A DNA stretch of 32,105 nt, taken from NCBI GenBank assembly GCA_016874915.1, contig VGSW01000024.1, forward strand, positions 1 to 32,105. Direction: 5' to 3'. The stretch is from Deltaproteobacteria bacterium (lineage in GTDB: Bacteria > Desulfobacterota > Desulfobaccia > Desulfobaccales > 0-14-0-80-60-11). Shown here in pieces: positions 47 to 24,115 of this stretch (position 1 is the stretch's first letter; every line of letters begins with the position of its first letter). The notes under the pieces were generated by a model. The model saw nothing but the letters and a program-made list of their open reading frames with translations. It was not told where the DNA came from and searched no databases. A program made the translations under genes and the position numbers.

Positions 47-1210
47 ATGAGCCTCACTACTGACCTTAGCGGGGGGCTGTTCGGGCCTACCAGAGAGGAA
101 ATCGAGAAAGAGGCGCAATACCAGAAGCAGCGCCGATTGCTGGAGCTGCAGCAGGAAGGGGCGGTAAAACTGGCGGAAGCCCGGAACGCTACCACCAGCC
201 CTCGGAAAGAGCCGGTCCGGGAAGCCCAGGCGTTCACCCGGGCCTTCGTTGCCGGCAAGGGACTGGGAGACGAGACTTCCTACGGCGGCCAGGGTCCTCT
301 GTTTCCCGAGGAGGCGGCCCGGTCCGAAACCCGGGTTGCTTCGGGCCAGCAGGACTTTGCCAGACCCATCCCGGTGACCCGAGGCATGACCACCACCTAC
401 CAGGGGCCGCGCTACGGGGAGGAGTTTGCCGCGCCGGGGCAGGCGGTGCAGGCTTTCCGGAGAGAGCAAGGCGCGCCTTTCGTGCCGGCGGGCGGAGCCA
501 TGGAGGGTCTCAAGCACCAAAACAAGCTGGAAGAAATCGCGGCCCAGGGAAAAAGCCAGGAAGCGGCCCTGGCGGGGGACGTGATGACCCGCAAGCGCAA
601 CCTGGAAGCCTTCATGAACCGGGTGCAAAGCGACCCCCGGTTTTACAAGGAAGGCCCGGAAGGCTTGGGGCCGGTGATTCCGGGTTTAGGGCAATTGGTT
701 ATGGGGTTCAAGGCTATGGGCGAGGCCGACCCCGAAAAGGCTTTCCAGGCGTTCGAAGCCAAGGCCATGCGCCACCTGGACGAGAACAAGTGGGTCAATG
801 ATCAGGGCATCACCAAGGCCGTGGAAAATCTGACAAAGGCCGGATACGCCCTGACGCAGGGGCAAAAATTATGGCTGACCACTCCTCAAGCCGACCAAGA
901 GGCGGAAAAGAAGCGCCGGGACACCATCCTTCAATGGGTCAACCCCCCGGCGGTCCCCGATAAAACCCAAAACCGGACTGCGCCGCTCCAAAATTCTCCG
1001 GGGACGGCACCGCCGCTTTTCCTGGACGACAAGATGGTGCAGGTGGGGCCCCGGGGAGAGATAACCCCGTTCAAGATTGAGGTGGGGCCGCGAGGGGAGA
1101 TCAGGCCGTTTAAGCCGCTTCCGGCCCTGCCGGGTCCGGCGCTCTTGCGGCCTGACCAGTACAGCCGGCTGATGGAAGAAAAGCAGCGCGGATACGGAGT
1201 CCTACCGTGA
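47..1210 (+). CDS. Hypothetical phage protein (387 aa)
   Basis: ATG preceded by GGAGG; stop overlaps the GTG start of the giant ORF (GTGA), suggesting translational coupling. Confidence 0.8.
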   Translation: MSLTTDLSGGLFGPTREEIEKEAQYQKQRRLLELQQEGAVKLAEARNATTSPRKEPVREAQAFTRAFVAGKGLGDETSYGGQGPLFPEEAARSETRVASGQQDFARPIPVTRGMTTTYQGPRYGEEFAAPGQAVQAFRREQGAPFVPAGGAMEGLKHQNKLEEIAAQGKSQEAALAGDVMTRKRNLEAFMNRVQSDPRFYKEGPEGLGPVIPGLGQLVMGFKAMGEADPEKAFQAFEAKAMRHLDENKWVNDQGITKAVENLTKAGYALTQGQKLWLTTPQADQEAEKKRRDTILQWVNPPAVPDKTQNRTAPLQNSPGTAPPLFLDDKMVQVGPRGEITPFKIEVGPRGEIRPFKPLPALPGPALLRPDQYSRLMEEKQRGYGVLP

Positions 1211-4200
1211 GTCTGCTTTACCCCGAAGAAGAACGCTTTAACCTGGCCCCGCTTCGGCCGCCGGGTCAGCCGCGGGTCCCCGACTTCATCCCGGAGATGT
1301 TCGGCAAGTCGCCGGATTTCATTCCCGAGGCGGCGCCGGGGGCGAAGACGCCCGACATTCCCGAGATGCCTTTGGAGTCCGTGACGCCGGAGCAGCAGGC
1401 GGGGGTGGATCGGATCGACCGCCTTTTAAAGAAGCGGCAGGCGGCCCAGGTGGAGGTGGAGCGGTCGCTTCCCGGAGAGGTGGCGGCCAGCCTGGGCCGG
1501 GGCGCCCTGGGCCTGGCCAAGCTGCCCTTCCAGCTGGCCAAGATCGCGGGTTCGGACGTTTTGCAAAGCGACACGGTCAAACGAATCACCGAACCGGTGA
1601 TCACCGGCCTGGAAGATATCGCGGAGTCCCCCGCGCTCAAGCCGGGCAAGGCCGCGGGCGGTCCCCCGGTGGAGTTGGACCGCATCCTCCAGGACCCCGG
1701 GGGCGTGGCCAAGCAGATCGCGGCCAACGTCACCAACCCCCACTTCTGGGCGGCCCAACTGCCGGAAGGGGCCATGAGCACCATCCCTTATTTCTTCGGC
1801 AACTGGATGGCCCGGGCCGGGGCCGCGGCCTTGAAATACGGCAAGCTGATCAACGGGGCCGACAAGGCGGCCAAGGCCGCGGCGTTGGCCGGGGATGCCG
1901 AGGCCCTGGCCACAGCCACCGCCAAGCTCACCGAGTACGGCTCGAAGCTCGCCCGCATGGGGCGCATGGGCGGATACAGCATGGCCATGGCCCAGGAAGC
2001 GGCCTCCGCGGAACAGAACTTAAGGAATTGGGAACTGGAGAAGGGCAAGGAAGTGCCCTGGCTCACCCGCAACATCGTCATGCTGGCCGGCGGGGCGCTG
2101 GCGGGCTCTCTGGAGGCCATGTCCCTGGAGCGAATCTTTGCCGGCAAGAAGGGCCTGACCCTGACCCGGAAGCTGCTGGATTCCATCATCACCGAAGGCT
2201 CCACGGAAGGCGCCCAGGAGATCGTGGCCAACGCCTTCAAGAAATACGGCTACGACCCGGACCAGAAGCTGACGGAAAACGTGGTGGAAAGCGTTCTGGT
2301 GGGCGCGGCCCTGGGCGGGGTCTTCGGGGGGGCCGAAAAATTCGCGGAGTACCGGCAGTACGTCCGGGAACTGCGGGAGAAGGCCGACTCTGAACAACAG
2401 GAACGCCAGGCCCCGGCCTGGACGCCCCCTGCAGTGGAGCCGTGGGAGGAAGCGCCCATAGCCCCGCCGCCGGCCACCTTCGGCCCGTCTCCCGGAGAAG
2501 AGATTCCCCCTCCGCCTCCCTACCGGATCATCGAGCGGGGGGAGCGGCCGCCCGCGGTCACCGAAGGTGAACCCGAAGGCGGCTCTCCCCTGGTGGACCA
2601 GTTCGGGCGGCCCATTTACCGGAGCGCCCTGGAGATCGCCTTGCGCAAGGAGCCGTGGGAGCGCACCGCGTTGGAGAAGTGGCTGGCGGACCAGGCCACC
2701 AAGGGCGAGACGGTGGCCCCGGAAACCCGGGGTCCGGGGATTGTCTTGGGGCCGGGGGGCGAAGTGGTGGCCGGTCCGGGCGCGGCTAGCCCCGCGCCCA
2801 CGCCTGCGCCCATGGGCGCGCCGGCCACGGAAACGGAAACCGTGCTGGAAGCGGCCAAGGAAGAAGCCGCGCCCCAGGTTCCCGACTTGAAAGAGCTGGT
2901 CGGCCAGTTGACGGCCCTGGTGGAAGAAACCGGGGACCCGGCCGCGGCCGCGAAGCTGAATGAACTGCTCATCGCCAACCGGGAGGAGGTGGGGAACCTC
3001 TTCAGGATGCCGGAAGAAGAGAGGCCGGGGTTGAAACCCATTGCGGAGCGGTTGTCCGGCCTCATCCGCCAGGTGGAGGAAACCGGCGATCCGGCCGCGG
3101 CCCGGGAGCTGCACGGCCTGCTGGCCGCCCATCGGGACGTGCTGAGAGGCGTGGGCCGGTGGGAAATTGATAAAGCGGCCAGCCCCCCGGAACCCCTGGC
3201 CCTTGCCGGAGTGCAGGCGGAAGAGGCAGCCCGCCCTCCCGAGCCAACCCCTTCCACCGAAATGCCCTCGCCTGCACCCCCGGCTCCGGAGCCGCCCCCG
3301 GTGCCCCGGGGAATCCAGGGCCATACGGTTGCGGCCACCACCGCCCGGGGCACCGCGGTGGACACGCAATATGAAGTGATGGACGTGGGCGACCTCGTCA
3401 CCTCCCACGACGACAACCTGGGCCTTAACCCGGCCTTTCCCCAGGAACTCCAGCCCCGGGAGCGGGGGCGGGTGGCTTCGCAACTGCAAATCGGCCGGAT
3501 TGAGCAGGGTCTTCAGCCTGACTTTTTGTTGACGGAATCTCCCCAAGCGGCAGAAGGCACTCCCATTATCGGGCCGGACAATCTGGTGGAAAGCGGCAAT
3601 GCCCGGACCATTGCGGTGCGGCGGCTTTATGGCCGGACGGATGGACAAATCGAAGCCTACCGGCAACGGTTGAAGGAAAAAGCTGCTCAGTTTGGCATCA
3701 ACCCGGCTTTGGTTGACCAAATACAGAATCCGATTTTGGTGCGGCGACGGTTATCGGAAGTGGACCGCCAGCAGTTTGTGCGGGAGGCCAACGAAGCGGC
3801 CGTAGCCGCCATGAGTGACGTGGAACAGGCCCGTTCCGACGCCAACCGGTTGCACGGCCTAGATATTCTGCAAAATTTCGTGGCCAACGATGACGGCGAA
3901 ATCCTGACTCAGGCCAACCGCTTCTTCATTAAGCAGTTCATGGAGAAGGTGGTGGGGCCGACAGAGGCCAATCGCTACCTGACTGCGGACGGCGGCTTAA
4001 GCCAAGCAGGGATAATGCGGATTCGCAATGCCTTATTCGCCCTGGCTTTTGGTGACTCCGCTTCTCTGGGGAAACTGGCCGAAAGCCCGGACGACAATGC
4101 CAGAAACATCACCGGGGCCATGGCCATGGTGGCGGCCCGCTTGGCCTCCATCAACAAGGAAATCGCCAAAGGCCGCCTGTTCGATCTGAACATCACCCAA

Positions 4201-7200
4201 GAGATTGGTCAGGCTGCGGACATTTTACAGAGCCTCAGAGAGCAGGGACAGTCGGTGGATTGGTTTTTGGCTCAACAGAAACTTTTTGAGACCATCGATC
4301 CGATAGTAGCCGACCTTCTGAGGGTTTTTTCCAGGTTCTCCCGTTCCCGCAAAAAACTTACAGCGATCTTCAACGCCTATGCGGAGGCCCTCGAAGCTTT
4401 GGGCAACCCCAAGCAGTTGCAGCTTTTAGGGCCAAAAATTGATATAAGCAAGGCGGAGCTTTTGCAGGCTGCCTTGACCAAGGAGAAGGGTCATGGAGAA
4501 GAAATCGGACCCCTACCAGTTGGAGTTCAGCCAGGTGCGACCCCAGGCGGTGAATTGGGTCCTGAAACGCATGGAGAAGATGGAAGCCAGGAAGCAAGCG
4601 AAGAAGGAGAAACAGGGCCAGAAGGCGCAAGTCATCCCGCTCCCGAAGAAGAAGTAAGTTTCGGCCCCGAGGATTTCGGCCTCACCGGGGGCCAACCTAA
4701 AGCCTCAACACTCGAAACCCGCTTAAAAGAAGTCCAAAAGCAGTTCCCCGACATCGACCCGGACAAGGCCCTGGCCGTGCTCCGGGCCTTCCCCGAAGGC
4801 CAGATCGAACCCGCCCAAGTCAACATTTTAGCCGGCGATCCCGAACTTTTCTCCCAGGTGTCCCGGGGGAACCTGTCGGCCCAGGAGCGGGAGCAGCTCT
4901 ACAAAAAAGCCACGGACCTGGGCCAGCAGCAAACTCTGGAAGGTCTGGGGCCGGGCGGGGGGTTGTTCGACCAAAAGCCGCCCGCCACAGAAGTCAAAAA
5001 GCCTCCTAAGCAGGAAACCGGCCCAGAACCCGGAAAAGAAGCCGGAGGACTGTTAAAGGCTTTTCGCGACCTGATCAATCAGGCCATGGGGCAACCGACT
5101 CCCGCCCCCATTACCGCCAAAGACGTGGCCGCGGTCGCCCAAAAAGCCGGAGTCCCCAAGGAAGAGCTGCCCCAGCGCCGGAAGGAGATCGAGGAAACCT
5201 TCGAACTGGCTTTGGTCAATAAGGCCCGGGAAATTGCGGCTAAAAAGGGCGACCAGGCTTTCGAGGAAATCAAGAAGCTCTACTCCCTGCAGCCGGCTTT
5301 GACCTCCCGCACTTCCACCACCGTCAAGAACCAAGCCTATTCCACTCCAGCTCCCCTGGCCTTCCTCATGAGCAAGGCGGTGGGCGTAACTTCAGGCGAT
5401 TGGGTCTATGAGCCCACGGCGGGCAACGGCATGCTCCTCATCGCCGCCAATCCAGAGCAAACCCTGGCCAACGAGATAGAGCCGCTCCGGGCCGAACATC
5501 TGCGCAGCCAAAGGTTCGACGTGACCGTCCAGGACGCCCGGAACTTGGTGGGGACCGAGGAGGGACCCCAGGAAAAGTCGGCGGACGTGGTCCTGGCCAA
5601 CCCGCCCTTCGGTTCTCTGGAAAAGCCGGTGGCCTTTGACGGCTACAAAATCACCAAGCTGGAGCACCTCATCGCCCTGGACGCGCTTAAAGCCATGGAC
5701 GATGACGGGCGGGCCGCGGTGATCACCGGGGGCCATTCCTTCGCCACCCCCTGGGGCCAGCCCATGACCCAGCTGACGGACGCGGACCGGGTGTTTTTCA
5801 ACTACCTTTACTCCCGGTACCGCGTCACCCACCATATCAACGTCGACGGCGACGTCTACAAGCAGATGGGAACCAAGTTCCCCATCCGGCTGCTGATCAT
5901 CGAGGGGCGCAAGGCCGAACCCCAGGGCGCGGCCCCGCACCAGGCCGATGGGATAGAGGTTGCCAAGACTTTTGACGATATTTATAAGTTGTTGAAAGGA
6001 GACATCGATGCCCGGGCAAAAGGTGTTGTGGCTCCCGAAGTTTCTAAGGGACAACCGGCCGGCGAGGATCGGCCTGGGGGTGCTGGTGTCGCCCCGGGGG
6101 GCGCAGCAGTTGGACAACCCCAAGGACCCGAACCGGGCCTGGGCCTACCTGGGGCACTGGGAGGACAAGGCCCGGGAGCTGTTGAAACGGAAGGAGAAGG
6201 AGGCGAAGTACGGCAGCCGGGAGGTTTACGGGGTGCTGCTGAGCCTGGGACCCCAGGTGGCGGACCAGTACCTGGCGGGGGACGAGGACCAGGAGGACCT
6301 GTTGAAGGCCATCCGGCAGCACCCGGAGAGCGGGGGCCTGGCCCATCTCCTGGCGTATCTCCGGGACCCCGGCCCGGCGAACAAAAAGGATCTCCTAAGC
6401 CGGTATCCCCAGGACCCGATGCACGACCGCCTCAGCCCGACAGAGGAACTGCAGGAACAGAACGAGGCGAGCCTGGCCGAGTTCCTCCAAAGTCTATAGG
6501 CTCCGGCACCAAAATCACTCTTCCCGATGGGACCATCGTCACCATCAAGGAAGAGGCCGCAACTTACCAAACCCATTCCAAAATTCAAGAAGAGGCCGCT
6601 CCCTATGGCGACCAGACCATCGAGGTGGTGGACGCCCAGGGGAACGTGCGCCGCATCCCCGTCGCCCAAATCCAGGGCGTCATTGACGAGTCGGGCCGGG
6701 AAATCAAACTTTCCGACCGGGACCGCCAGGAGCTCCGGGTTTTCCAAAAGAACCAGTGGGTGGAAACCGCGGACGGCAAGGTGGGCCAAATCACCAAAAT
6801 CCGGGGCTGGTTCGACAAGATGACCTTAACCGTGCAGGGGCCGGAAGGACCGCTTACGTTCAAGCCGGGGGACGTCAAGAACATTCTGCCCGGGCCGCCC
6901 GAAGCCCAAAAAACCGAAGCTCCCGCCCCGCCTAAAACCGAAGCCCCCGCGGAAGAAACCAGGCTCCAGGCGGCCTACCAGCCCACCTCCAAAGGACCGG
7001 CCATGAACACCGTGGCTCCCCGGTACATGGCCGAGGCCGTCAAGAATTACCTGGAAAAGTTGCAGGAAGAGATCGGCGACCTGGACGAGTTCGTGCGGGA
7101 CCGCCTGGGCTACCAAACCAAGGAGGAGATGTTTTCGGTCCTGGGGGCCGAGCAGATCGAAGGGGTGGCCCTGGCCATCGACGCCATAGAAAGGGGCACC

Positions 7201-10200
7201 GGGGGCTTCGTCATCGGCCACCAGACGGGCGTGGGCAAGGGCCGCATGGTGGCCGCGGTCATGCGCTATGCCAAGAACCGGGGATTGGTGCCCATCTTCT
7301 TGACCGAAAACGACGGCCTGTTTTCCGCCATGTACCGGGACATGCGGGACATCAAGGCCGACCTCAACCCCCTCATCGTGGCCAGCAACAAGGACCGGGC
7401 TCGTATCGTGGACAACGACGGCAACGTCATCCGGAACCTGGACAAGAAGGCCATCCAGGAAGCGGTGAGAAGGCGGGATTTACCGGCCGGGTATGACGCG
7501 GTCTTCACCACCTATTACCAGATCAACAGCAAAAACTTGACCGGGAAGATGGAACTGCTGCGGGCCCTGGCGCCCAGGAGCATCCTGATCCTGGACGAGT
7601 CCCACAAAGGGGCCGGCCAGGAGAGCAACACCGGGGCCTTCTTAAGGTCGGCCATGACCGGCGCGGCCCGGGGCGTGGTCTATTCCTCCGCCACCTATGC
7701 CAAGCGGCCCGATACCATGGCCCTGTACCACCGCACCGAATTGGGCAACCTCAACGTGGACCTGGACACCGTCATTGAGAACCTGAAGCGGGGCGGGGTC
7801 CCCTTGCAGGAATGGATCGCCCACCAATGGGCCTTGAGCGGCCAGATGATCCGCAACGAACTCTCCTTCGCGGGGATCGACATCCCGGTGGAGGTGGACC
7901 ACGAGAGCGCGGCCCGGGATCGGCAGCGTTCCGATGACCTGACGGCCTGCCTTAGGGCCATCCTCAAGTTTTCCAAGGAATTCAACCTGTGGGTCAAGGA
8001 CCTGGACGCAGATTTCAAAAAAGAGGGCAAGGCCGCGGACGAGGGGTTCCGGGGAGGCATCAGCGCCACCCATTTCGCCTCGGTGATGCACAACAAGATT
8101 TCACAACTGCTGTTCTGCCTGCGGGCCGACGCCACCATCAAGGAAGCCCTGGACGCTCTCAAACAGGGCCGCAAGGTGGTCATCGGCTGCTACAACACCA
8201 TGGAGTCCTTCCTGGACGACATGCTGGAAGCCGGGGTGATCCGGGTGGGGGACGAAGTGAACATGAACTTCGCCCAGGTGCTCCGCAAGGCCGCGGACGG
8301 CACCCGGACCTACCGCATCAAGCACCATGATGGCAGCACGGAGAAGGTGACAGTCCAGGTGGAGGAAATGCCGGAGCATCTGCAGTACTTGTGGGGGCAG
8401 ACCGTTAATCTTATCGACGGCACCGTGACGGACGTGCCGGCCATGCCCATCGACTATATCGCCAAGGCCCTGGAAAGGGAAGGCTACCAGGTGGGGGAGA
8501 TCACCGGGCGCACCCATGTCCTGGACTGGCAAGAAGAGCGAAATATCCTGCGCAAACGCAGCGACAAGGAGAAGTACGACAAAAACACCCCCGTCAACAA
8601 GTTCAATTCCGGAGAATTCGACGCCTTGATCATCAACAGTTCCGGGAGCACCGGGATTTCGTTGCACAGCGGCGAGAAGTTCAAGGACCAGCGTCCCCGG
8701 CACATGGTCCTGACCCAGATGAGCCAGGAGATCAACGAGGCGGTGCAGCTCCTGGGGCGCATCCACCGCACCGGCCAGGTCCACAAGCCCAGCTACAAGG
8801 TGAAGATCAGCTCTCTTCCCGGCGAGAAGCGGCCTCTGGTGATCCTCCAGAAAAAGATGGCCTCCCTGTTCGCCAATATCTCCGCCAAGGGGGAGAGCGC
8901 CTACTCCCTGGACGTGGCGGACATCATCAACCAGTACGGCGACCGGGTGGCGGCCGAGATGTTCGCCGAAGACCCCAGCTTGAACGACCGCCTCAGCGGG
9001 GTCCTGGACCGGGTGATCGACCACGAATTCATCGAGGCGGACCGGGACGGGCGGATCCACCAGATTTTGCAAGCCTTTCCGGAAACCGGCTCCCTGACCA
9101 AGCGGGTTACCGGCTGGACCGCCCTGCAGCCGGTGGCGGTGCAGGAGGAGGTGTGGGCCGCCCTTGACGCCAAGTATGAAGAGCTGGTGGAGCACCTGAA
9201 ACAGATCGGCGAGTACAACCTGGAAAGCGAGCACCTGGACCTCCAGGCCAAAACCCTGGATAAGACCATGCTGGTGGCCGGCGACGCCCGGGGCAAAAGC
9301 GAGCTTTCCAGCCCCACCTATTTTGAGACGGTGGACGCCAAGATCCAGAAGAAGCCCATGACCCGGGCCGAGATCGAGAAGCGCCTCGAGGCCCACCTGA
9401 AGGGGAAAACCCCGGAGCGAGCAGCCGACGAACTTAAAACCCAGTTGGAGGACGATTTCCACGCCTGGCTGAAAGAGAAGAAGACCCTGATGGCGGGGGC
9501 CAACAACGCCCCGGAAATCATTGAAAGGTATGAACGGGGAGCCAGGCAAGCCCTGACTTTCGCCCTGGACACCCTGGATCAGTTCAAAATCGGCGCCCAC
9601 GTCACCCACCTGGAAGTCCTTGAAGGGGTCATCTACAACATTCAGTACAAGCCCACCCCCGGCAGCAACCCCGCCACGCCGTCCAACTTCAAGTACACCC
9701 TGGCGGTGGGGTCCTCCATGCGCACCTACCGCACCACCGCGTCCTTAAGGGGCCAGTCCTTCATCAAAGGAGAAGGCGTCCCGGCTGATTGGGACGAGCA
9801 GATGAAGGTCTTTCACCTCCAGCCCTATGAGAAACGCTACCTGGTGACGGGGAACCTCCTGGGCAACCCCATCAACAAGGGGCAGATGACCTTCTTTACC
9901 CGGGAAGACGGCAAACTGGCCACCGGCTTCGTCATGCCCCTCAATTTCGACCCTTCCAAGTACAAGGAACTGCAAACCGTCACCCTGAACCGGGACCAGG
10001 CCATCCAGGTGCTTAAGCGGCAGGGGTTGCTCAATGGCGGGGGAGTCTTCCTGCAAAAGTACGGCTCCGGTTACAAAATCTCCGTTCCCCTGGCCAAGAA
10101 AACCGGGGGCAGGTTTTATCTGGACGAAGACATCCTTAAGCACACCCGGGGCGATTTTTATAAATCCGGCCAGGCCATGGAGGCCGATATCGACACCTTT

Positions 10201-13200
10201 CAGGACGCCGCGGCCGTCATCGGCGTCCTCATGCAGAAGCACGGCGTTGCCGTCAGCCTGGCCCGGGTCACCTTCGAGGAAATTTTCGGGAAACCGGGGG
10301 AAAGCCACCGGCCCCTGGAGATCGCCGAAGGCTCGGCGCCCTATGCGGTAAAAACCACGGCCAGCCTGAAGCGCCAGATCGTTCCCCACCCCAAGGTCCT
10401 GGCGGAATATCAATCTGATGAGATGAGGCTCGCGTATGGATCTGAAAGCCTTGCGCAGGAAGCTGCTGCTGAAATCCGCAAAAAAGCCGAGCAAGCCGCC
10501 AAGAGGCAGGCTGGCGTATCCGGTAGAGCCGTGCCGGGGTCTCTTAAGGAGTATCGAAACAAGGTTTCCCAGGAATACGGCGACAGGAGATGGATCAGCT
10601 ACGTCGGGCGGCGACTGACGCCGGGCATGGAGCCTTACGAGATTGCCGAGCTCTTTCAAATCTACCGCAGCCCCCGGCAGGAGAACCTGCACGTCATCTA
10701 CACGGATGAAAAGGGCTTGATCCTGGCCCATAACACCCTGTCTTCCGGGACCCTTTCTTCCGTGAACGTGGACCTGGAATGGCTCGTGGGCCACGTCAGA
10801 CAGGCGGCCGGGCGCCTGGGAGCCGCCAAGGTCCATTTCCTCCACAACCATCCCAGCGGCAACCCCAAGATGAGCCGGGGCGACCTGGCGGGATTCAACA
10901 TCCTTTTTAAAGGACTGCCCGACTTGAACTTCAAGGGTTTAGGCGGCCTCATGGGTGAGTTCCTGGTGATCGACCACGGAAAGCTGAGCTACATCAGGAA
11001 CGGCATGGAATTCCAGGGGTTCTTCCGGCCCCGCCCCGGTGCAGGGGATTGGCTGGACAAAAAGGCCAGGATTAAAAACGAGGTTGACCTGGCCAACTTC
11101 GCTTTCTCCCTGGGTATCGACCCGGAAAAGGTGTGCCTGATCTTCACCAACGCCCAGAACCAGGTGCAGGGCTGGACGGTGCACCGCAAAAAGGTTCTCT
11201 CCAAACCCATCAATCAGGTGCGGAAAACCCTCATGGGCCTGGCCCGGGCCTACGACGCCAACCAGGTCAGCGTCATCATTGGAGATATAGACCTGTTGGA
11301 GCAATTCGTCACCCGGCAGGCCGAGGTTTTGGACAGATCCTCGTTCAACGAATGGATCATGGACATCCAAACCACGGAAGGCGAGAGCGTGCGCCGGGAG
11401 ATGCCGGAGTTGTGGACGCCCCAGCCGGGCCGGAAAGCCAGGAAATACGCCCGGAGGTTTCTATTCGAGGATGCGGCAAGATTTGGCGAAGCCGACCTAA
11501 GGGACATTGACGCCTACCGGGAGAAATACATCGCCGCTCCCCAAGAGGAAAAGAAGGGCCTGAAAGACCGCCTTACCGAAAAGCTTAAAACCTTCTACGA
11601 CCAGACCGTGGATCGTTGGGCCTCCTGGGAGCGGGCCGCCCGGCGCGCCGCCAAAGAAGGGGCCGCGGTGCCCGCGGGCGAAAACATCATCAACAGCTTG
11701 AGTTACATGAGGGGCGCCGAGGGCCGGGTGCACCAGGGCATCATGGGCGAGTACGTTTACCAGGACAAGAAAGCCTTTGACGAGAACCTGGGGATGGAGG
11801 TCTTCACCGGCGACGAGCTGGTGCGCAAAGGCCCCAGCCTGAAAGTGCGCCTGGAAGAGCTTAAGAAGCTGGCCGACAGCCGGGGTGACTCTTACGGCCA
11901 GGCCATGAACGACCTGGAAACCTTCATGGTGGCCCAACGGGACCTGGAACTGGCCGGGGACACCGGGGTGCGGGAGCAAGGGGCCATCAAGGGGGTGCAT
12001 CCCGAGGAAAGCCGTCGGGTCATCGAGGCCCTCAAGCGGAAGTATGACAAAGACTTCGAGAGCCTGTCAAAGGTGGCCGACTCGCTGCGGGAGTGGGGCG
12101 ATGAGATGATCCTTCAACCCTTGCTACAGGTGGGGTTCATTGACGAGGAGACCTACCACCAAATCAAGGAGCGCAACGAATACTACATCCCCTATAAGCG
12201 CCTCCTGGACGACGTGGAGACCTACATCGCGGCCAACGCCGCGGCCATGGGGGTGCCGGGCCGGATGATCCGGGAAATCAAAGGCTCGGAGCGCCAGGTG
12301 CTCAACCCCATGCAGATGTGGATCGACCTGGCCCACAAAGCCGCATACGCTTACGCCAAGAACAAGACCACCCGCTCGGTTTTTGTCACCGCCAAGGCCG
12401 CGGGATGGGAGGACGTTAAGGAAGTCCCGGCCAAGTACCTCCCCATAGACTTTGTCCAGAAGCAGGAGATGGACGCGGTTCTCCGGCCCCAGCTCACCCG
12501 CCTGGCCGAAGACCTGGGCATCAAGGTGAAAGTCCTGGGGAAGCTCCGGGGCCGGCGCCTGGGGCAGTTCAAGTCCTGGCTCAAGCAGGAGGTGCAAGAC
12601 GGCAAGCTGGCCGTGGAAACGGCCAGGGAGATCGAGGTCAGGTTCGCCACCTTCGAGGCCACCTTGGCCCACGAGCTGGGCCACGGAATCGACGAGTCCT
12701 ACGGCCTGGTGAAACTGCTCATCGAGAACGGCACCCCGGAGATGAAGAAGGAGCTGCGCCGCATCGCCGACCAGCGGGCCGGGGCCGCGTCCTCCAAGTC
12801 CTATCAGCGGTATATCCGCAAGAAGGAAGAGCAGGTGGCGGAGTTCGTCAGCCGCTACGTCATCGACCGGAGATCGGTGGAGCGGCTGGCCCCCACCGCC
12901 CTGGCGGCCTTCGAAGGCTTCCTGAAGTGGAACCCGAAACTGACGCCGCTTCTGAGCTTTCGTCTCTCCCACCAGGCCGGGATGATGGACTTCACCAACC
13001 GCATCTGGGCCCGGTCGCCTTTGCCCCCGGAGCCGGGAACCATCCCCTATTTCCGGGACGGCAGCCAGCGCTGGTTAAAACTGCCGCCTGACATGTACCA
13101 GGCGACCCAAAGCGCCATGTCTGCGGAGATGGGGATCCTGCTGCGCATCGCCAAGTGGCCCGCCGACACCCTGCGGGCCGGGGCCATCCTCGCGCCGGAG

Positions 13201-15018
13201 TTCGCCCTGGGCCGCAACCCCGCCCGGGACATCGTCCAGGCCTGGCTCTTCAGCCGCTTCGGATTCAACCCCTTCAAATGGGTGCGGGACGCGGTGGGCC
13301 TCTTGTCCAACGATGAAAACGTCAAGGAATGGCAACGGCAATGGGAAGCCGGGGGCGGTCCTTTGGCGACCCTGGCCCAAAGCTTCGTGGACCCCGAAAA
13401 GATTACGCCCGAAGCCATCATGGGGGACAAGAAGAAGATCAAATACTTCGCCCACCCCATCGACGCCCTGCGGCACGTGTCGGCTTACCTGGAGAACCTG
13501 ACCCGGTTCTCCATTTATAAGCAGGCCCGGGAGAAGGGCCTGACCCACGCCGAGGCGGTCCACGAGGCCCGGCGCACCACTTTGGACTACGCCCGGGTCG
13601 GCGGCCACCCCGCGGTGCGCTATCTCAACATGATCATCCCCTTCTGGAACGCCTCCATCCAGGGCATGGACAAGCTCCTCACCGAACTCGCCGGCCCCAA
13701 CAAGAAGGCGGTATACCGGCGCCTGGGCATGCTGGCCGGGGTTTCCGTGCTCATCTGGCTCTATGCCCACCGGGACGACCGCTATAAGGAACTGGAGGAT
13801 TGGGAGAAAAACTATTTCTGGCACCTGCCCCTGGGTCCCCAGGCTCCTATGCTTCGCATCCCCAAGCCCTTTGAGGCCGGGATCCTGTTCGGCTCCACCT
13901 TCGAGCGCCTCATGGAATGGGGCCGGGGCGAAAATATCAAGGGCTTACAGAGCGCTCTCCATGCGGCCTGGGAAGCGGCCACCCCGGAAGTCATACCCAC
14001 CCTCGCCCGGCCCTACGTGGAAGGGAAAGCCAATTACGATTTCTTCCGGGGCCGGGCCATTGAAGACGCGGCCCTGCAGCGCCTCCCGGTGCAGCTCCGG
14101 GCCAAGCCCTGGACTACGGCCACGGCCAAGGCGGTGAGCAAGCTGGCGCAGCCGGTGACGGACATCAGCCCCGTCCAGGTGGAACACTTCATTCGCACCT
14201 GGAGCGGCGGCCTGGGGGCCAACTATTTCCTGCCCGGAGTAGACGTGATCCTGCGCAAGGCCGGGGTCCTGGAAGATATCCCTCAACCGGCCCAGGAAAC
14301 GATTCAGAAAATCTGGGGGGTGCGCTCCTTTTTCACCCGGATGCCTACCGGCTACCGGGCCAAGAGCGTCAACGATTTCTTTGAGCGTTACCAGGACATC
14401 ATTCAGGCCGACGCCGGCTGGAAAGCCCTGTGGAACGCCGGGCAGAAAGAGGAATTGGACCGGTTCCTGGCCGCGCACCCCGAGGCCATGTTCGCCCGGG
14501 TGGCCCACAAATTCATCGATGAGATGGGAAAGATCAAAAAGGAGCGCACCGCCATCCACCTGAGCCGGGCGCTGACCCCGGAGCGGAAGAAGGAGAAGCT
14601 GGATCTTTTGGATGAAAAGGTGGTCAAGCTGGCCCGGGAAGCCAACGCCTTCATGTCCCAGGACGTGGCCCAAGCCCTGAAAATGCCTTCCCGGTTCACC
14701 ACCGAGACCGGGGTTCGGAAGGCCATAGACTTGAAAGACTATTACAAGATGGTGGCCGAGTCCACCGTTGACGCCTTTGAAGAAGTGAAGAAAGATCCCC
14801 GGTTTTTCACCCTGGACGAAGAGGCCCGCAACCACCGCCTGGCCTCCCTCCTCAAGCGGATGCGGGAGGAATATCAGCCGGTCAAAAAACCGGGGCGGGA
14901 GTTGGACGAAGTGATGAAGCCGTTTCGGTACAGGTCCATGTTCGACCAGCCCACCCGGCGCCAGCGAGCCGAATGGTCCAATATCTTCGGCCCCCGGCCC
15001 CCGGTGCTTTATCAATAA
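1207..15018 (+). CDS. Giant phage polyvalent protein (4603 aa): ParB/DdrB-like, N6-adenine MTase, Strawberry-notch-like helicase, RadC/JAB, HExxH zincin and LPD-type regions
   Basis: One uninterrupted ORF. Motifs read in the translation: NPPF, HQTGVGKGR (Walker A), LDESHKG (Walker B), QLLGRIHRTGQ (motif VI), HNHPSGNPKMSRGD (JAMM), AHELGHGID. Confidence 0.9.
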   Translation: MSLLYPEEERFNLAPLRPPGQPRVPDFIPEMFGKSPDFIPEAAPGAKTPDIPEMPLESVTPEQQAGVDRIDRLLKKRQAAQVEVERSLPGEVAASLGRGALGLAKLPFQLAKIAGSDVLQSDTVKRITEPVITGLEDIAESPALKPGKAAGGPPVELDRILQDPGGVAKQIAANVTNPHFWAAQLPEGAMSTIPYFFGNWMARAGAAALKYGKLINGADKAAKAAALAGDAEALATATAKLTEYGSKLARMGRMGGYSMAMAQEAASAEQNLRNWELEKGKEVPWLTRNIVMLAGGALAGSLEAMSLERIFAGKKGLTLTRKLLDSIITEGSTEGAQEIVANAFKKYGYDPDQKLTENVVESVLVGAALGGVFGGAEKFAEYRQYVRELREKADSEQQERQAPAWTPPAVEPWEEAPIAPPPATFGPSPGEEIPPPPPYRIIERGERPPAVTEGEPEGGSPLVDQFGRPIYRSALEIALRKEPWERTALEKWLADQATKGETVAPETRGPGIVLGPGGEVVAGPGAASPAPTPAPMGAPATETETVLEAAKEEAAPQVPDLKELVGQLTALVEETGDPAAAAKLNELLIANREEVGNLFRMPEEERPGLKPIAERLSGLIRQVEETGDPAAARELHGLLAAHRDVLRGVGRWEIDKAASPPEPLALAGVQAEEAARPPEPTPSTEMPSPAPPAPEPPPVPRGIQGHTVAATTARGTAVDTQYEVMDVGDLVTSHDDNLGLNPAFPQELQPRERGRVASQLQIGRIEQGLQPDFLLTESPQAAEGTPIIGPDNLVESGNARTIAVRRLYGRTDGQIEAYRQRLKEKAAQFGINPALVDQIQNPILVRRRLSEVDRQQFVREANEAAVAAMSDVEQARSDANRLHGLDILQNFVANDDGEILTQANRFFIKQFMEKVVGPTEANRYLTADGGLSQAGIMRIRNALFALAFGDSASLGKLAESPDDNARNITGAMAMVAARLASINKEIAKGRLFDLNITQEIGQAADILQSLREQGQSVDWFLAQQKLFETIDPIVADLLRVFSRFSRSRKKLTAIFNAYAEALEALGNPKQLQLLGPKIDISKAELLQAALTKEKGHGEEIGPLPVGVQPGATPGGELGPETHGEDGSQEASEEGETGPEGASHPAPEEEVSFGPEDFGLTGGQPKASTLETRLKEVQKQFPDIDPDKALAVLRAFPEGQIEPAQVNILAGDPELFSQVSRGNLSAQEREQLYKKATDLGQQQTLEGLGPGGGLFDQKPPATEVKKPPKQETGPEPGKEAGGLLKAFRDLINQAMGQPTPAPITAKDVAAVAQKAGVPKEELPQRRKEIEETFELALVNKAREIAAKKGDQAFEEIKKLYSLQPALTSRTSTTVKNQAYSTPAPLAFLMSKAVGVTSGDWVYEPTAGNGMLLIAANPEQTLANEIEPLRAEHLRSQRFDVTVQDARNLVGTEEGPQEKSADVVLANPPFGSLEKPVAFDGYKITKLEHLIALDALKAMDDDGRAAVITGGHSFATPWGQPMTQLTDADRVFFNYLYSRYRVTHHINVDGDVYKQMGTKFPIRLLIIEGRKAEPQGAAPHQADGIEVAKTFDDIYKLLKGDIDARAKGVVAPEVSKGQPAGEDRPGGAGVAPGGAAVGQPQGPEPGLGLPGALGGQGPGAVETEGEGGEVRQPGGLRGAAEPGTPGGGPVPGGGRGPGGPVEGHPAAPGERGPGPSPGVSPGPRPGEQKGSPKPVSPGPDARPPQPDRGTAGTERGEPGRVPPKSIGSGTKITLPDGTIVTIKEEAATYQTHSKIQEEAAPYGDQTIEVVDAQGNVRRIPVAQIQGVIDESGREIKLSDRDRQELRVFQKNQWVETADGKVGQITKIRGWFDKMTLTVQGPEGPLTFKPGDVKNILPGPPEAQKTEAPAPPKTEAPAEETRLQAAYQPTSKGPAMNTVAPRYMAEAVKNYLEKLQEEIGDLDEFVRDRLGYQTKEEMFSVLGAEQIEGVALAIDAIERGTGGFVIGHQTGVGKGRMVAAVMRYAKNRGLVPIFLTENDGLFSAMYRDMRDIKADLNPLIVASNKDRARIVDNDGNVIRNLDKKAIQEAVRRRDLPAGYDAVFTTYYQINSKNLTGKMELLRALAPRSILILDESHKGAGQESNTGAFLRSAMTGAARGVVYSSATYAKRPDTMALYHRTELGNLNVDLDTVIENLKRGGVPLQEWIAHQWALSGQMIRNELSFAGIDIPVEVDHESAARDRQRSDDLTACLRAILKFSKEFNLWVKDLDADFKKEGKAADEGFRGGISATHFASVMHNKISQLLFCLRADATIKEALDALKQGRKVVIGCYNTMESFLDDMLEAGVIRVGDEVNMNFAQVLRKAADGTRTYRIKHHDGSTEKVTVQVEEMPEHLQYLWGQTVNLIDGTVTDVPAMPIDYIAKALEREGYQVGEITGRTHVLDWQEERNILRKRSDKEKYDKNTPVNKFNSGEFDALIINSSGSTGISLHSGEKFKDQRPRHMVLTQMSQEINEAVQLLGRIHRTGQVHKPSYKVKISSLPGEKRPLVILQKKMASLFANISAKGESAYSLDVADIINQYGDRVAAEMFAEDPSLNDRLSGVLDRVIDHEFIEADRDGRIHQILQAFPETGSLTKRVTGWTALQPVAVQEEVWAALDAKYEELVEHLKQIGEYNLESEHLDLQAKTLDKTMLVAGDARGKSELSSPTYFETVDAKIQKKPMTRAEIEKRLEAHLKGKTPERAADELKTQLEDDFHAWLKEKKTLMAGANNAPEIIERYERGARQALTFALDTLDQFKIGAHVTHLEVLEGVIYNIQYKPTPGSNPATPSNFKYTLAVGSSMRTYRTTASLRGQSFIKGEGVPADWDEQMKVFHLQPYEKRYLVTGNLLGNPINKGQMTFFTREDGKLATGFVMPLNFDPSKYKELQTVTLNRDQAIQVLKRQGLLNGGGVFLQKYGSGYKISVPLAKKTGGRFYLDEDILKHTRGDFYKSGQAMEADIDTFQDAAAVIGVLMQKHGVAVSLARVTFEEIFGKPGESHRPLEIAEGSAPYAVKTTASLKRQIVPHPKVLAEYQSDEMRLAYGSESLAQEAAAEIRKKAEQAAKRQAGVSGRAVPGSLKEYRNKVSQEYGDRRWISYVGRRLTPGMEPYEIAELFQIYRSPRQENLHVIYTDEKGLILAHNTLSSGTLSSVNVDLEWLVGHVRQAAGRLGAAKVHFLHNHPSGNPKMSRGDLAGFNILFKGLPDLNFKGLGGLMGEFLVIDHGKLSYIRNGMEFQGFFRPRPGAGDWLDKKARIKNEVDLANFAFSLGIDPEKVCLIFTNAQNQVQGWTVHRKKVLSKPINQVRKTLMGLARAYDANQVSVIIGDIDLLEQFVTRQAEVLDRSSFNEWIMDIQTTEGESVRREMPELWTPQPGRKARKYARRFLFEDAARFGEADLRDIDAYREKYIAAPQEEKKGLKDRLTEKLKTFYDQTVDRWASWERAARRAAKEGAAVPAGENIINSLSYMRGAEGRVHQGIMGEYVYQDKKAFDENLGMEVFTGDELVRKGPSLKVRLEELKKLADSRGDSYGQAMNDLETFMVAQRDLELAGDTGVREQGAIKGVHPEESRRVIEALKRKYDKDFESLSKVADSLREWGDEMILQPLLQVGFIDEETYHQIKERNEYYIPYKRLLDDVETYIAANAAAMGVPGRMIREIKGSERQVLNPMQMWIDLAHKAAYAYAKNKTTRSVFVTAKAAGWEDVKEVPAKYLPIDFVQKQEMDAVLRPQLTRLAEDLGIKVKVLGKLRGRRLGQFKSWLKQEVQDGKLAVETAREIEVRFATFEATLAHELGHGIDESYGLVKLLIENGTPEMKKELRRIADQRAGAASSKSYQRYIRKKEEQVAEFVSRYVIDRRSVERLAPTALAAFEGFLKWNPKLTPLLSFRLSHQAGMMDFTNRIWARSPLPPEPGTIPYFRDGSQRWLKLPPDMYQATQSAMSAEMGILLRIAKWPADTLRAGAILAPEFALGRNPARDIVQAWLFSRFGFNPFKWVRDAVGLLSNDENVKEWQRQWEAGGGPLATLAQSFVDPEKITPEAIMGDKKKIKYFAHPIDALRHVSAYLENLTRFSIYKQAREKGLTHAEAVHEARRTTLDYARVGGHPAVRYLNMIIPFWNASIQGMDKLLTELAGPNKKAVYRRLGMLAGVSVLIWLYAHRDDRYKELEDWEKNYFWHLPLGPQAPMLRIPKPFEAGILFGSTFERLMEWGRGENIKGLQSALHAAWEAATPEVIPTLARPYVEGKANYDFFRGRAIEDAALQRLPVQLRAKPWTTATAKAVSKLAQPVTDISPVQVEHFIRTWSGGLGANYFLPGVDVILRKAGVLEDIPQPAQETIQKIWGVRSFFTRMPTGYRAKSVNDFFERYQDIIQADAGWKALWNAGQKEELDRFLAAHPEAMFARVAHKFIDEMGKIKKERTAIHLSRALTPERKKEKLDLLDEKVVKLAREANAFMSQDVAQALKMPSRFTTETGVRKAIDLKDYYKMVAESTVDAFEEVKKDPRFFTLDEEARNHRLASLLKRMREEYQPVKKPGRELDEVMKPFRYRSMFDQPTRRQRAEWSNIFGPRPPVLYQ
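3313..4440 (+). other. ParB/DdrB-like region within the giant protein
   Basis: IIGPDNLVESGNARTIAVRRLYGR…NPILVRRRL…RQQFVREANEAAVAAMSDVEQARSDANRL resembles the DdrB-like ParB superfamily region of phage polyvalent proteins. Confidence 0.65.
4493..4657 (+). CDS. Nested +1-frame small ORF (54 aa, MEKKSDPYQLEFSQVRPQAVNWVLKRMEKMEARKQAKKEKQGQKAQVIPLPKKK)
   Basis: AAGGAG at 4480-4485, 7 nt before ATG; local GC3 bias favours this frame over the giant ORF frame. Confidence 0.6.
   Translation: MEKKSDPYQLEFSQVRPQAVNWVLKRMEKMEARKQAKKEKQGQKAQVIPLPKKK
5302..5990 (+). other. N6-adenine DNA methyltransferase domain within the giant protein
   Basis: Motif I-like YEPTAGNGMLL and motif IV ADVVLANPPFGS (NPPF at 5599-5610). 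Confidence 0.8.
6008..6499 (+). CDS. Nested +1-frame ORF (163 aa) inside the giant ORF
   Basis: AAAGGAG at 5995-6001, 6 nt before ATG; natural amino-acid composition and high GC3 here, while the giant ORF frame reads Pro/Gly low-complexity. Confidence 0.7.
   Translation: MPGQKVLWLPKFLRDNRPARIGLGVLVSPRGAQQLDNPKDPNRAWAYLGHWEDKARELLKRKEKEAKYGSREVYGVLLSLGPQVADQYLAGDEDQEDLLKAIRQHPESGGLAHLLAYLRDPGPANKKDLLSRYPQDPMHDRLSPTEELQEQNEASLAEFLQSL
7000..9060 (+). other. Strawberry-notch-like SF2 helicase region (AAA/P-loop plus Helicase_C-like) within the giant protein
   Basis: GTGGFVIGHQTGVGKGRMVAA, SILILDESHKGAGQ, VVYSSATYAKRP, MSQEINEAVQLLGRIHRTGQVHKP. Confidence 0.8.
10436..10618 (+). CDS. Possible third nested +1-frame small ORF (60 aa)
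   Basis: GAGG at 10425-10428, 7 nt before ATG; the first ~35-40 codons are GC3-rich in this frame while the main frame is GC3-poor over the same stretch. Confidence 0.35.
   Translation: MDLKALRRKLLLKSAKKPSKPPRGRLAYPVEPCRGLLRSIETRFPRNTATGDGSATSGGD
10630..11000 (+). other. RadC-like JAB/MPN domain within the giant protein
   Basis: HNHPSGNPKMSRGD (10843-10884) fits H-x-H-x7-S-x2-D. Confidence 0.8.
12640..12880 (+). other. HExxH metalloprotease (zincin) motif within the giant protein
   Basis: FEATLAHELGHGIDESYG with downstream EEQVAEFVSRYVID; HELGH at 12670-12684. Confidence 0.65.
13150..14300 (+). other. C-terminal LPD38-like large polyvalent protein-associated region
   Basis: APEFALGRNPARDIVQAWLFSRFGFNPF…ARRTTLDYARVGGHPAVRYLNMIIPFWNASIQGMDKL resembles LPD38-type C-termini. 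Confidence 0.55.
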
Positions 15019-15985: not shown

Positions 15986-16579
15986 ATGGAAGAATACAGC
16001 AGGGAATTCTTGGAAGCGGTGGGTCTGACCCTGTCCGCCGAAGGCGGTTACAGCAACCGGCCCCTGTCCGAAGACCCGGGCGGGGCTACCAACTTGGGGG
16101 TGACCCAGGGGTTGCTGGACGCCATCGGCGGCTTTAACGGCAACAGAAGTGTGCGCCAACTCTCAGAAGCGGACGCCATCGGGATCTACTGGAAGCACTT
16201 TTGGCTGCGATACGGCTGCGACAAGCTGCCCTGGCCCCTCAGTTGCGCGGTATTCGATCACGGGGTGAACGCCGGTGCCTGGGGCCCCAAGCTGCTCCAG
16301 ACCATGCTCAACGAGTATATCGATGGCGAGATCGCGGTGGATGGAGGAATCGGGCCGGCCACCATGGCGGCCTTGGATGAGGCCGTGGCCAAGGTAGAGG
16401 CGACCTTGCGGTCCCTGGATTACCGGGGATTGACCCTGCAATGGTTGACCCATACCTATCTTTTCAGACGGATGAGAGATTATGCCACCCGCCCCGGCCT
16501 GTCGGTGCGCCAGGCCAACATGTCCGGCTGGACCAACCGGGTCTGCGACCTGGAGGAGAAGCTGTGCCATGGCGAATAA
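15986..16579 (+). CDS. Glycosyl hydrolase 108-family endolysin (197 aa)
   Basis: SAEGGYSNRPLSEDPGGATNLGVTQG matches the GH108 catalytic-region pattern; C-terminal PG_binding_3-like region; GGAGGTGGGGG before ATG. Confidence 0.88.
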   Translation: MEEYSREFLEAVGLTLSAEGGYSNRPLSEDPGGATNLGVTQGLLDAIGGFNGNRSVRQLSEADAIGIYWKHFWLRYGCDKLPWPLSCAVFDHGVNAGAWGPKLLQTMLNEYIDGEIAVDGGIGPATMAALDEAVAKVEATLRSLDYRGLTLQWLTHTYLFRRMRDYATRPGLSVRQANMSGWTNRVCDLEEKLCHGE

Positions 16580-17603: not shown

Positions 17604-18029
17604 CTAAGAAGAGAAGGAGTGCTCTAAAATTTCGGTAGTTAAAGAATCCCAGTCTATTTCATTCCTATCAAGTTGGCATTCCCATAACACAAGACATCGC
17701 CAACCAAGTTCCTGAAGTTTCGTGATAGAAGCGATATCTCTCTCTCGATTTCTTCTTATTTTTTTTTCCCAAAATTCAATATTGCTACTCGGCAGCGATG
17801 CTTTTTGGCAATTTGCATGACCATGCCAAAAGCATCCATTAACAAATAAAGCGACCTTGTATCGTGGAAAAACTAAATCAGGTTTTCCAGGAAGTTCCTT
17901 AATATGAAGTCTATACCGCAATCCTCTCTTGTGCAATTCCTTTCTAACCTGCAATTCGATCTGGGTATCCTTCCCTTTAACTGCAGCCATGATGCGGCTT
18001 CTTTTTTCTTGAGTAAATATATCAGCCAT
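17604..18029 (-). CDS. vsr: Very short patch repair (Vsr) endonuclease (141 aa)
   Basis: RSRIMAAVKGKDTQIELQVRKELHKRGLRYRLH…LPGKPDLVFPRYKVALFVNGCFWHGH. Confidence 0.93.
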   Translation of the reverse strand: MADIFTQEKRSRIMAAVKGKDTQIELQVRKELHKRGLRYRLHIKELPGKPDLVFPRYKVALFVNGCFWHGHANCQKASLPSSNIEFWEKKIRRNRERDIASITKLQELGWRCLVLWECQLDRNEIDWDSLTTEILEHSFSS

Positions 18030-18033
18030 AATG

Positions 18034-21000
18034 TCAGATTAAGATATTTAGATTACTCAATATCTCATTCACAGTTATGTCTATCAGCCTGATAATATCA
18101 AATTGTCGATGGATTCTTGTTATAACATTGCCTAACGATAGAGCGTCTTCATCCCTGAAAGTTCTTCTAAGATAAGGCCGAGTCCGCCACTTAAACCATT
18201 CTTTCAGCACCGAATATCCTGCGATATCATAATCTAAAATCTCTCTACCGATACCGTCAATCACATATTCCCCTCCTTCCGTAGTCTCAACGACAAGGGT
18301 TGCGGCGTTGAGATCGATCTCGATGCCTCTGATATCCATTTCTCGATTTCTAATAGGTGATAATGCATTGATGATTTCTTCATCGGCGTCAATCTCGGAG
18401 TCGAAATTCTCAAGACGGGCAAGTCTTTCCCCCAGATCAACCAAACGTTCGAAAAGGGAATTGTATTGAGTGATGGGAATGCGTGGCCACTCTCCTGCGG
18501 TGTGAAAAAGGGCTCCTTCGAAACGATCCAGATAAGCATTTGAACATAATATTCCATAAGAGTAAAAAAGGATTTTTTTAGCTAAAGTCTCCCTATTGGA
18601 TTCAACATGGCCCAAAGATTGAAGAAGTTCTCCTGAAATGTTTAACCTAGGGCGATCATCCCATTGTCTATGCGGCCTTCTGTATTCCGGAAAATAAAGA
18701 CAAAAGACATGTGCATTACCCCTAGTACAAAGATCATTATCTGGAATATGCCAGGCAAACGATGAAAACCGATGAATGGACTCGCCAATATCTTCAGGGG
18801 CAGGAGCAACGGAGAATCCGAAATTTCCATCCAAAGAGTAAGCTGCCAGTATTTCAGGGCGGGATCTTGATCCTCCCCCTCCCATGCCGGCTAATCTCGT
18901 AAGAATGGGTGTGCAAAGGAAAACATAGGCAGGGGAGAAAGGACGAAAGGAGTAAGGCCGCAAATATTGCCTTGCCCCCCTGCTCCCAATGTGAACCCCT
19001 ATTTCGTGCCTGATAGTGATATTCAGAGAATCCTCTTGGGGAGGTTTTCTTTGCCCCCTGAACCAGCGTTCGATGAGCGTCCCAAAAGGCATATTAACGT
19101 TGCCGGTGTCCCTCAATCGGCGAAGCAAAATTGACTGGTCAACATGGACTAAAGCGGCAGTTATCCCGAGTTTGACGCCGGAACAATGTCTTAAGAATAT
19201 GACCCGCTCTCCAAGGCTAGGGGTCTGCCCGTGGGGGCACAGTTGCCAGAACCTTTCATAAATTTCTTGTTCAAAAGGAATGCTTGGGCGAAATTTATAG
19301 TTAGGAGGCGTCACTTCCAGCGTTTCAAAATCTCCATCTCCCTGACCGGCATTCGAGTTCAATTCATCGGTTTTTTGCTGAAAAAATTCTACCTTGGCAG
19401 AACTATCCAAATTTAGGATCGACAAACACTTGACTTCCGGATTACCATCCGTTTGGTTTTCGCGAGCGCAAAAAATAAGGGCTCGACCTTGGCGGGTCGG
19501 AAAGAGATTTGAAACTCTGATGCCTGTCCTGCTGTCAGAGTCGAATTCCAAGGCCCAAATCCAAGTGAAATTATTAAAAAGCCATTGACGAGCATTATCA
19601 TAGGAAACATGTTTCAAGAAAGATGAAGGTACTACGAAAGCCAATATCCCCGGTTCTCCCAGTGGAAGTTTATGACAGGCCCATCTTACGAATTTCAAAA
19701 AATCATTTTGAACCTGTTTTTGAACATTTTGTCTGAGGGACCTTTGGACTTGGGGCGGTCTAAATTCCTCCATTAATTCATAAATTCTCTTGTGAGTTCG
19801 CCGGTCGATATGTCGTCCGGCATCCGAGGAAGGGGGGTTACCTATAATAGCCGTAATCGGAGGGGTCGCCAATGTCACGGCCTCTTCCCTTTCGGATTGA
19901 AAAAGTTGCCTTGCTGCAGTAGGGCCGGACGAAGGCGGTTCGGGGAGAACCGAGTCTATTATTGCGTCTGACAATGTGTTGCACATGACAACCTTTACCT
20001 CATCGGCGGCCGCGACACCTTCCGAGGCTAATAACGCTAATCTATATTGAGATAGAGCATAAGGTGCAGGGAGAATTTCAAACCCTGCCATTGTAGGGAA
20101 TCTTCTTTCCCTAATTGTTTGAGGTGGTAACGCGTGAAGAACTTCCTCCAAAAAAGTTCCGGTTCCGCAACAAGGATCGATTATCTTGTTTCCATAGATA
20201 AATAAACTTCGATGGTTGAACTTAGTCCTGGCAATCCAATCGGAAAAAGCCACTACATACCGGACTAGAGGTTCGGGTGTTGCATATGCCCCAAAGTCGA
20301 TTCGGACTTGGGGATCATATGCCGAGAGGAATTGTTCGTATAACGAATGATAATTTACCGAGTGTTGTTGCTCATTCTGGAGAAATACATGAGAAAGGAA
20401 TAAAACACAATCGGAGTACCAGGTCATTAAAAGTCCCAAACCCATTTCTTCCGTTGAAAGAGATTCGGCAAGGGCTCTGAATGGTCTCAAGCGATTGGCA
20501 CCGTCTTGCCTTATGGCTTCAATCCAGAAATGGTGCAGACTTCGGGAAAGCTCCGCGGTGTCTTGCGTCGTTGAAACTAGATGCCTATGAGCATATAATA
20601 ATCCAAATACGAGGACCTGGGAAACCATATCCGCAAACTTGCGGTTATCACACAAGTCAGGATCGTGACCCGTCGTTAAAAGCTCTTTAAGACCATGAAG
20701 CGCTTCGATATTCCGATTCTCCTCGTCATCGATTCCGGAACCTTCGTCAAGGCTTATCAATTCGAGAATATCTTCGCTAATTTTCTTGGCTCTTAATGCC
20801 ATGGCCCTGATAATTTGGGAATCTGAGAGAATCCGAGGAGAGGGGGCTTGGAAAAAATTCGAAAAATTGACTTGAAGATCGGTATTTATCTGCGAGTTTC
20901 TCCATGGAAATCTCAAGGATAATGGTTTTGCGACTAGCGATCTCAGGGTCAATCTTTCGGGTTGATCAGGATCGAAAAATACGAAATCGATTCCATCAGA

Positions 21001-21363: not shown

Positions 21364-21420
21364 TGCTTACTCCTGGAAATCGAAGAACGATAAAGTTAGC
21401 GGAAAGTTTCTCTATTTTTT

Positions 21421-23940: not shown

Positions 23941-24112
23941 GCTGTTGATGGCGTCCGATTTCCCTTTCTTTGAAAAGGTTGGCCAAGGCGTATCTAACTA
24001 TCCAGGAAATTGAAACCCTATTTTGTTCTGCCAATTCAATAAGTTGGCGATACATATCTTCTTCAGTGCTTATAGTAAACCGTTTTGATTTTAGCATAAC
24101 CGTATTTTCCAT
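23909..24112 (-). CDS. Ribbon-helix-helix (CopG-like) regulator (67 aa)
   Basis: KRFTISTEEDMYRQLIELAEQNRVSISWIVRYALANLFKE fits the RHH pattern; first gene of the leftward MTase operon. Confidence 0.72.
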   Translation of the reverse strand: MENTVMLKSKRFTISTEEDMYRQLIELAEQNRVSISWIVRYALANLFKEREIGRHQQLVLPFKNQSN

Positions 24113-24115
24113 ATG

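Follow-up and report, generated by a model that had tools for sequence, protein, structure and literature searches.

Evidence for a protein family encoded in the +1 frame of the methyltransferase-helicase linker of giant polyvalent genes

The gene for a 4603-aa polyvalent protein very likely contains a second, completely nested gene on the same strand. The nested gene occupies positions 6008 to 6499 of the 32,105-nucleotide stretch that was analyzed as a whole (termed the window) and is read in the +1 frame relative to the larger gene. Sequence comparison establishes that it has its own start region and that its protein is under purifying selection; that this protein folds is predicted by a model. 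Over the same bases, the frame of the giant mainly has to stay open. A family to which the nested protein belongs sits at the junction of the methyltransferase and strawberry-notch helicase domains in most of the giant polyvalent genes examined. Translation is inferred from selection and signals, without support from Ribo-seq or proteomics. Conservation is decisive in favor of a real gene over a chance ORF: close relatives are intact, substitution periodicity shifts, homologs are recruited in the +1 frame without control matches, and the predicted fold is confident.

The nested reading frame and its enclosing gene

The enclosing gene (positions 1207-15018, on the plus strand, as are all features of this gene given here) has ddrB-ParB (domain match at 3346-3750), N6-adenine methyltransferase (5284-5910), strawberry-notch-type helicase (7138-9222; PF13872 AAA_34 and then PF13871 Helicase_C_4) and RadC/JAB domains. 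It also has large polyvalent protein associated domain 38 (LPD38, 13774-14259), which places the giant among the polyvalent proteins. With an N6-methyltransferase followed by an SF2 helicase and polyvalent-associated domains, the gene meets the definition of the DarB type. By its ddrB-ParB, N6-methyltransferase, strawberry-notch SNF2-like helicase, RadC-JAB and LPD38 domains, it is one of the polyvalent proteins with a DNA methylase-helicase dyad, for which DarB is the archetype (Iyer et al. 2017, PMC5512222). That paper deals with the giant frame only, and term searches of its text turned up no gene in the methyltransferase-helicase linker. In phage P1, DarB differs in that its helicase is of the classical SNF2 kind and that a nested gene is lacking.

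Just 3' of the giant, a GH108-type endolysin gene (15986-16579) supports a phage or prophage setting. A restriction-modification island adjoins the element on the minus strand (17604-25691) and encodes a Vsr endonuclease, a 1109-aa N6-methyltransferase with a type ISP specificity domain, an 839-aa C5-cytosine methyltransferase and an Mrr-type endonuclease side by side. Two ATPases of branched-chain amino-acid ABC transporters (28971-30768) probably belong to the host chromosome beyond the element.

The nested gene runs for 163 codons, from ATG to TAG. The Shine-Dalgarno (SD) sequence AAAGGAG (5995-6001) lies 6 nt before the ATG at 6008 and is kept across five close giants. A +1-frame TGA (5993-5995) stands just 5' of the start, so the ORF is unable to extend far upstream. 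In its own frame, the giant encodes a Pro/Gly-rich linker here (6004-6498) that remains open and is under little or no amino-acid constraint. GC content by codon position in the giant frame is 0.68/0.46/0.76 in the upstream flank and 0.62/0.40/0.83 in the downstream flank; over 6008-6499 it is 0.89/0.71/0.38 in the giant frame and 0.72/0.39/0.89 in the nested frame. An earlier note, made from the sequence alone, had claimed the SD motif, its spacing, the frame and the length of the product, and these are exact. Also upheld are its statements that the giant frame becomes low-complexity Pro/Gly sequence that is poor in GC at third positions, that the +1 frame is GC3-rich and encodes a normal-looking helical protein, and that the gene begins right after the methyltransferase domain (the gap to the end of the profile match is 97 nt).

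Start codon, SD sequence, frame and stop codon are intact in four close relatives, namely G118, a metagenome-assembled genome from another family of the phylum (Thermodesulfobacteriota isolate Yes70-24), and three IMG/VR contigs (L008, L009 and L010). The G118 homolog is 60% identical to the window protein, has the same SD, ATG and TAG, and is likewise nested in the +1 frame of a homologous giant. All indels among the close relatives are multiples of three. A segment of the giant that follows the linker (GSGT.ITLPDGT.VTIKEE; window 6499-6726, L010:6254-6442) recurs elsewhere in the giants of L008-L010, as a repeated small domain.

Substitutions reveal which frame is constrained. Between L008 and L009, differences by codon position are 3/0/51 for the giant frame of a 300-codon flank and 24/19/36 for the nested frame of the nested stretch. 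Inside the nested ORF, third positions of the giant frame have the fewest or nearly the fewest changes and nested third positions have the most; in the flanks, giant third positions change most. When the whole giant was scanned with a sliding window, the only long continuous run without a maximum at giant third positions extended from 6025 to about 6490. Four other single windows (at 3574, 3892, 4306 and 5050) lacked a third-position excess, and three of them are gappy and Pro-rich. We read such regions, at about 3574-4400 and near 5050, as alignment noise.

Changes that leave the nested protein unaltered but affect the giant occur at 1.5-1.7 times the mean rate, and those that affect only the nested protein at 0.69-0.78 of it. 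Changes that alter the amino acids in both frames are at least as frequent as those that alter the nested protein alone, which indicates that the amino acids of the giant are hardly constrained in the overlap. The class silent in both frames (17 and 28 changes) was too rare to weigh. We also compared 28 independent pairs that span many clades. Variability peaks at the nested third position in all 28 and is lowest at the giant third position in 25, whereas in both flanks it is the giant third position that varies most in all 28. The flip in codon position and the substitution classes thus show purifying selection in the alternative frame. The nested protein evolves faster than the flanking enzymes: L017 and L085 are 46% identical in the nested protein, versus 91% in the methyltransferase and 92% in the helicase.

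The length of the ORF proves little by itself for the window, because the +1 frame is not significantly more open than the giant's amino acids allow (p=0.35, synonymous-codon simulation). This test is weak locus by locus, and the unremarkable result is partly due to the giant's composition being dictated by the nested gene. In the converse case, with nested codons chosen at random according to the codon usage of the giant, about five stops (median) would be expected in the giant frame over the overlap. Given the nested protein, the median chance of the observed openness of the giant frame is 0.003, and it is below 0.05 in 106 of 129 loci. The frame of the giant thus stays open much more frequently than the nested protein by itself would allow, so its continuity is itself selected and both frames are used. 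Translation of the enclosing frame through the overlap is supported indirectly, by the openness of the linker and by the presence of methyltransferase and helicase in one open frame in 162 of 167 loci.

A family at the methyltransferase-helicase junction

A search with the single query P0001 gave no match in viral contigs or phages, and relatives surfaced only by alignment and by way of the giant's domains. Giants were gathered from viral contigs, genomes and plasmids by using the helicase and methyltransferase domains as bait. Both domains were found at the 167 loci mentioned above, which yielded 133 non-redundant linkers of fused N6-methyltransferase/strawberry-notch-helicase giants. In 130 of these linkers the +1 frame contains an ORF that reaches 70 aa or more (median 131 aa); the +2 frame does so in only 5. 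Length was not taken as proof, since antisense ORFs that long are also frequent (50-94 of 133).

Iterative profiles built from the five close proteins recruit 99 of the 130 linker ORFs at E<1e-3, and none of the reversed, shuffled, antisense or giant-frame controls in the same test fell below E=0.05. In the mirror test, a profile made from the giant-frame linker recruited nothing. When compared with six-frame ORFs of every locus, the profile matches only these linkers, their duplicates, or loci cut inside them; L107 and L063 are matched although they were outside the training set. Weak matches in L002 and L004 were judged to be chance. Most of the remaining subgroups can be linked to the core by profile comparison: bact2, short2 and win5 match it with E around 1e-5, the Bacteroides-type group does so weakly (6e-4), and the subgroup termed "short" has no homology to the core that such a comparison can detect. 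Distances between nested proteins correlate with those between the helicases (Mantel 0.30, permutation maximum 0.08).

About 125 other phage and plasmid versions of the giant carry a counterpart at the same spot, so what the earlier note saw in one element is a widespread family and not a peculiarity of that element. The 31 unrecruited ORFs include at least two (L106 and L019) that look like off-frame noise. The gene is absent from some relatives (L106, forms with short linkers, and P1 darB), and hence is not indispensable. We examined two +1 ORFs of P1 darB (127 and 118 aa) and dismissed them as off-frame noise. The L106 locus (L106:10618-11305) has a methyltransferase that is 69% identical to that of the window; its linker is a short Pro/Gln-rich stretch whose +1 reading is Arg-rich junk, and it may represent natural loss or the state before gain.

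Initiation and predicted structure

An SD-like motif precedes 81 of the 130 nested starts (62%), versus 7.8% of 6411 control +1-frame ATGs. That 127 of the 130 starts are ATG was not counted as evidence, since the start rule preferred ATG. At 92 of the 130 loci, the nearest in-frame stop 5' of the nested start is no more than 10 codons away, and at the other 38 it is farther. In L008-L010, a +1-frame TAG directly precedes the nested ATG, so these products are not extended upstream.

These features bear on the possibility that the +1 frame is entered by programmed ribosomal frameshifting from the giant, which would produce a methyltransferase-nested fusion ending at 6499. The frame is +1 in direction throughout, and the loci with distant upstream stops would permit this route. 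However, the close upstream stops at most loci, including the abutting TAG of L008-L010, and the strong enrichment of SD-like motifs argue against it, and no slippery site was noted in the window, albeit by eye only. We consider frameshifting very unlikely. SD enrichment and close upstream stops favor internal initiation, which remains an inference made without expression data.

An AlphaFold2 model of the window protein, made with 79 family members, is mostly helical and confident (mean pLDDT 93.5, pTM 0.88). Foldseek found no match at E<=0.001 in PDB or BFVD, with best TM-scores of about 0.2. Scans of 83 members against Pfam, PHROGs and NCBIfam gave no shared profile match; scattered weak matches of single members to Pfam or NCBIfam entries (DUF2947, CHAD and others) were rejected as chance. 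The earlier note had proposed homology searches with the 163-aa product, and a PDB profile search produced only weak matches to helical proteins, several of them designed repeats, that we judged to be noise. The nested product is a new family without a recognized fold match, and it is absent from these three family databases.

A further rival explanation is that the +1 ORF is an untranslated compositional by-product of a GC-rich, Pro/Gly-rich linker. In its favor, synonymous resampling often leaves the +1 frame open, as it does for the window, and long antisense ORFs are common too. However, this explanation does not account for giant third positions becoming the least variable, for +1 proteins that are homologous across clades when the giant linker is not, for the enrichment of SD motifs, or for the confident fold. 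Moreover, the gene-less L106 has only its short linker and junk in the +1 frame. The by-product explanation is already contradicted and all but excluded. The earlier note had suggested a real overlapping gene, which is supported by conservation, substitution periodicity, homolog recruitment and fold, although translation is inferred. It would have been refuted by homologs that lack the ATG and SD or have stops in the +1 frame, or by missing +1 periodicity; instead, the homologs keep both signals and an open frame, and the periodicity is present.

Origin, possible role and annotation

Of 46 genomes from one Thermodesulfobacteriota family, 25 encode a stand-alone chromosomal protein of roughly 216-230 aa, which shares with the nested family its C-terminal half, which aligns end to end, and the order of predicted elements (E-H-E-H-long H and so on). 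It differs in being encoded by a non-overlapping gene and in having an additional N-terminal half that is zinc-ribbon-like (CPxCGHHE). By hhalign, the match to the nested family has a probability of 96.9% (E=1.7e-10), or 95.9% with only the five window relatives, versus 0.4% for a reversed control. The AlphaFold2 model of the stand-alone protein is of low confidence (pLDDT 59.6), and only the order of elements was used from it. The domain therefore exists outside any overlap. The stand-alone protein has no Pfam or NCBIfam match. In several genomes its gene lies among metabolic genes, near EtfA/EtfB and a TetR-like regulator, neighbors that offer no functional lead. Examples are found in L189, L190, L192 and L199-L218 (for example, L192:1363-2022, minus strand).

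Giants or smaller fusions that lack the nested gene (L106, L019, L022, L031 and L047) have short, simple linkers. This fact, coupled with the stand-alone homolog, suggests that a small gene was engulfed and that the giant's linker was overprinted upon it. The small gene may once have stood between separate methyltransferase and helicase genes and been swallowed at their fusion, leaving the low-complexity linker as the overprinted frame. We lean toward this inferred history, although not strongly. The reverse, in which the giant linker came first and the small gene was created de novo within it by overprinting, is possible and is not excluded. De novo overprinting inside an older gene is the textbook direction. 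Such an origin is typical for viral overlapping genes (PMC8227390), and the lack of a structural match in PDB or BFVD is in keeping with it. Against it, the nested protein families are conserved and the giant linker is not, in addition to the stand-alone homolog and the short linkers of gene-less giants.

With regard to function, the inferred picture is that ribosomes initiate within the polyvalent mRNA at ATG 6008 and that the small helical protein is made alongside the growing giant at the point where the methyltransferase domain is emerging. It may help in assembly or delivery of the methyltransferase-helicase module, or keep the module in check. Whether the protein is such an accessory or regulatory partner is close to an even question; we favor this inferred role over an independent one, but it rests solely on the constant location of the gene.

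The main rival on function is that the protein is real but independent of the giant, for example a fast-evolving anti-defense or virion protein that merely travels along. Its faster evolution than its flanks is consistent with this view. So is the acidity of the family (median pI 4.6, net charge -9), and several DNA-mimic antirestriction proteins are similarly acidic. Also consistent is its delivery with elements that inject polyvalent proteins; the products of DarB-like genes are believed to accompany the DNA into the host (PMC5512222). However, across all loci searched, the nested gene turned up nowhere but at the methyltransferase-helicase junction, both in phages and on cyanobacterial plasmids; the latter are mobilizable, and no virion is expected there. 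In addition, acidity is only mild in the window protein (charge -2, pI 6.1), and the stand-alone homolog sits among metabolic genes. An independent role thus seems the slightly poorer prospect.

A bolder reading combines these proposals. The nested proteins would be an undescribed family encoded almost exclusively in the +1 frame of other genes, engulfed by fusion, unannotated in many loci, and acting as a co-translated regulator of an injected methyltransferase-helicase. We offer this only tentatively, as the balance tips a little against it.

Fully nested, same-strand phage genes include phiX174 E in D and lambda Rz1 in Rz. The gene described here resembles them in its complete embedding in another frame and its own initiation site. 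Unlike them, it is housed in the linker of a multi-domain giant and occurs across phages and plasmids from many hosts, and selective constraint rests on the small frame and not on the large one. For large DNA phages and plasmids, long nested genes on the same strand have seldom been demonstrated convincingly. With this gene, the polyvalent early-injection systems that counteract host defense gain a previously hidden component. This family offers a built-in comparative test across more than 100 loci together with a confident predicted fold. It is also a natural experiment on the sharing of constraint, in which the small frame holds a protein and the large frame holds mainly openness. Cultured carriers are available in Picosynechococcus PCC 7002 (plasmid pAQ6) and Bacteroides phage BS-TP4. 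On pAQ6, the nested ORF occupies NC_010480.1 100510-101013 on the minus strand, within SYNPCC7002_RS15125.

No earlier description of the nested gene was found in the open-access literature searched. The expectation that standard gene callers would suppress it is supported: annotation software almost always misses the nested counterpart, and public records with the same arrangement mostly annotate only the large gene. This is so for Bacteroides phage BS-TP4 and for four Picosynechococcus/[Synechococcus] plasmids, and it exposes a systematic blind spot of gene callers. In Gloeobacter plasmid pGMOR1 (L021:6786-7932), the record includes the nested gene (WP_230844304.1) and instead leaves out the methyltransferase that overlaps it. 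The helicase gene of this plasmid is annotated as starting 4 nt before the end of the nested gene.
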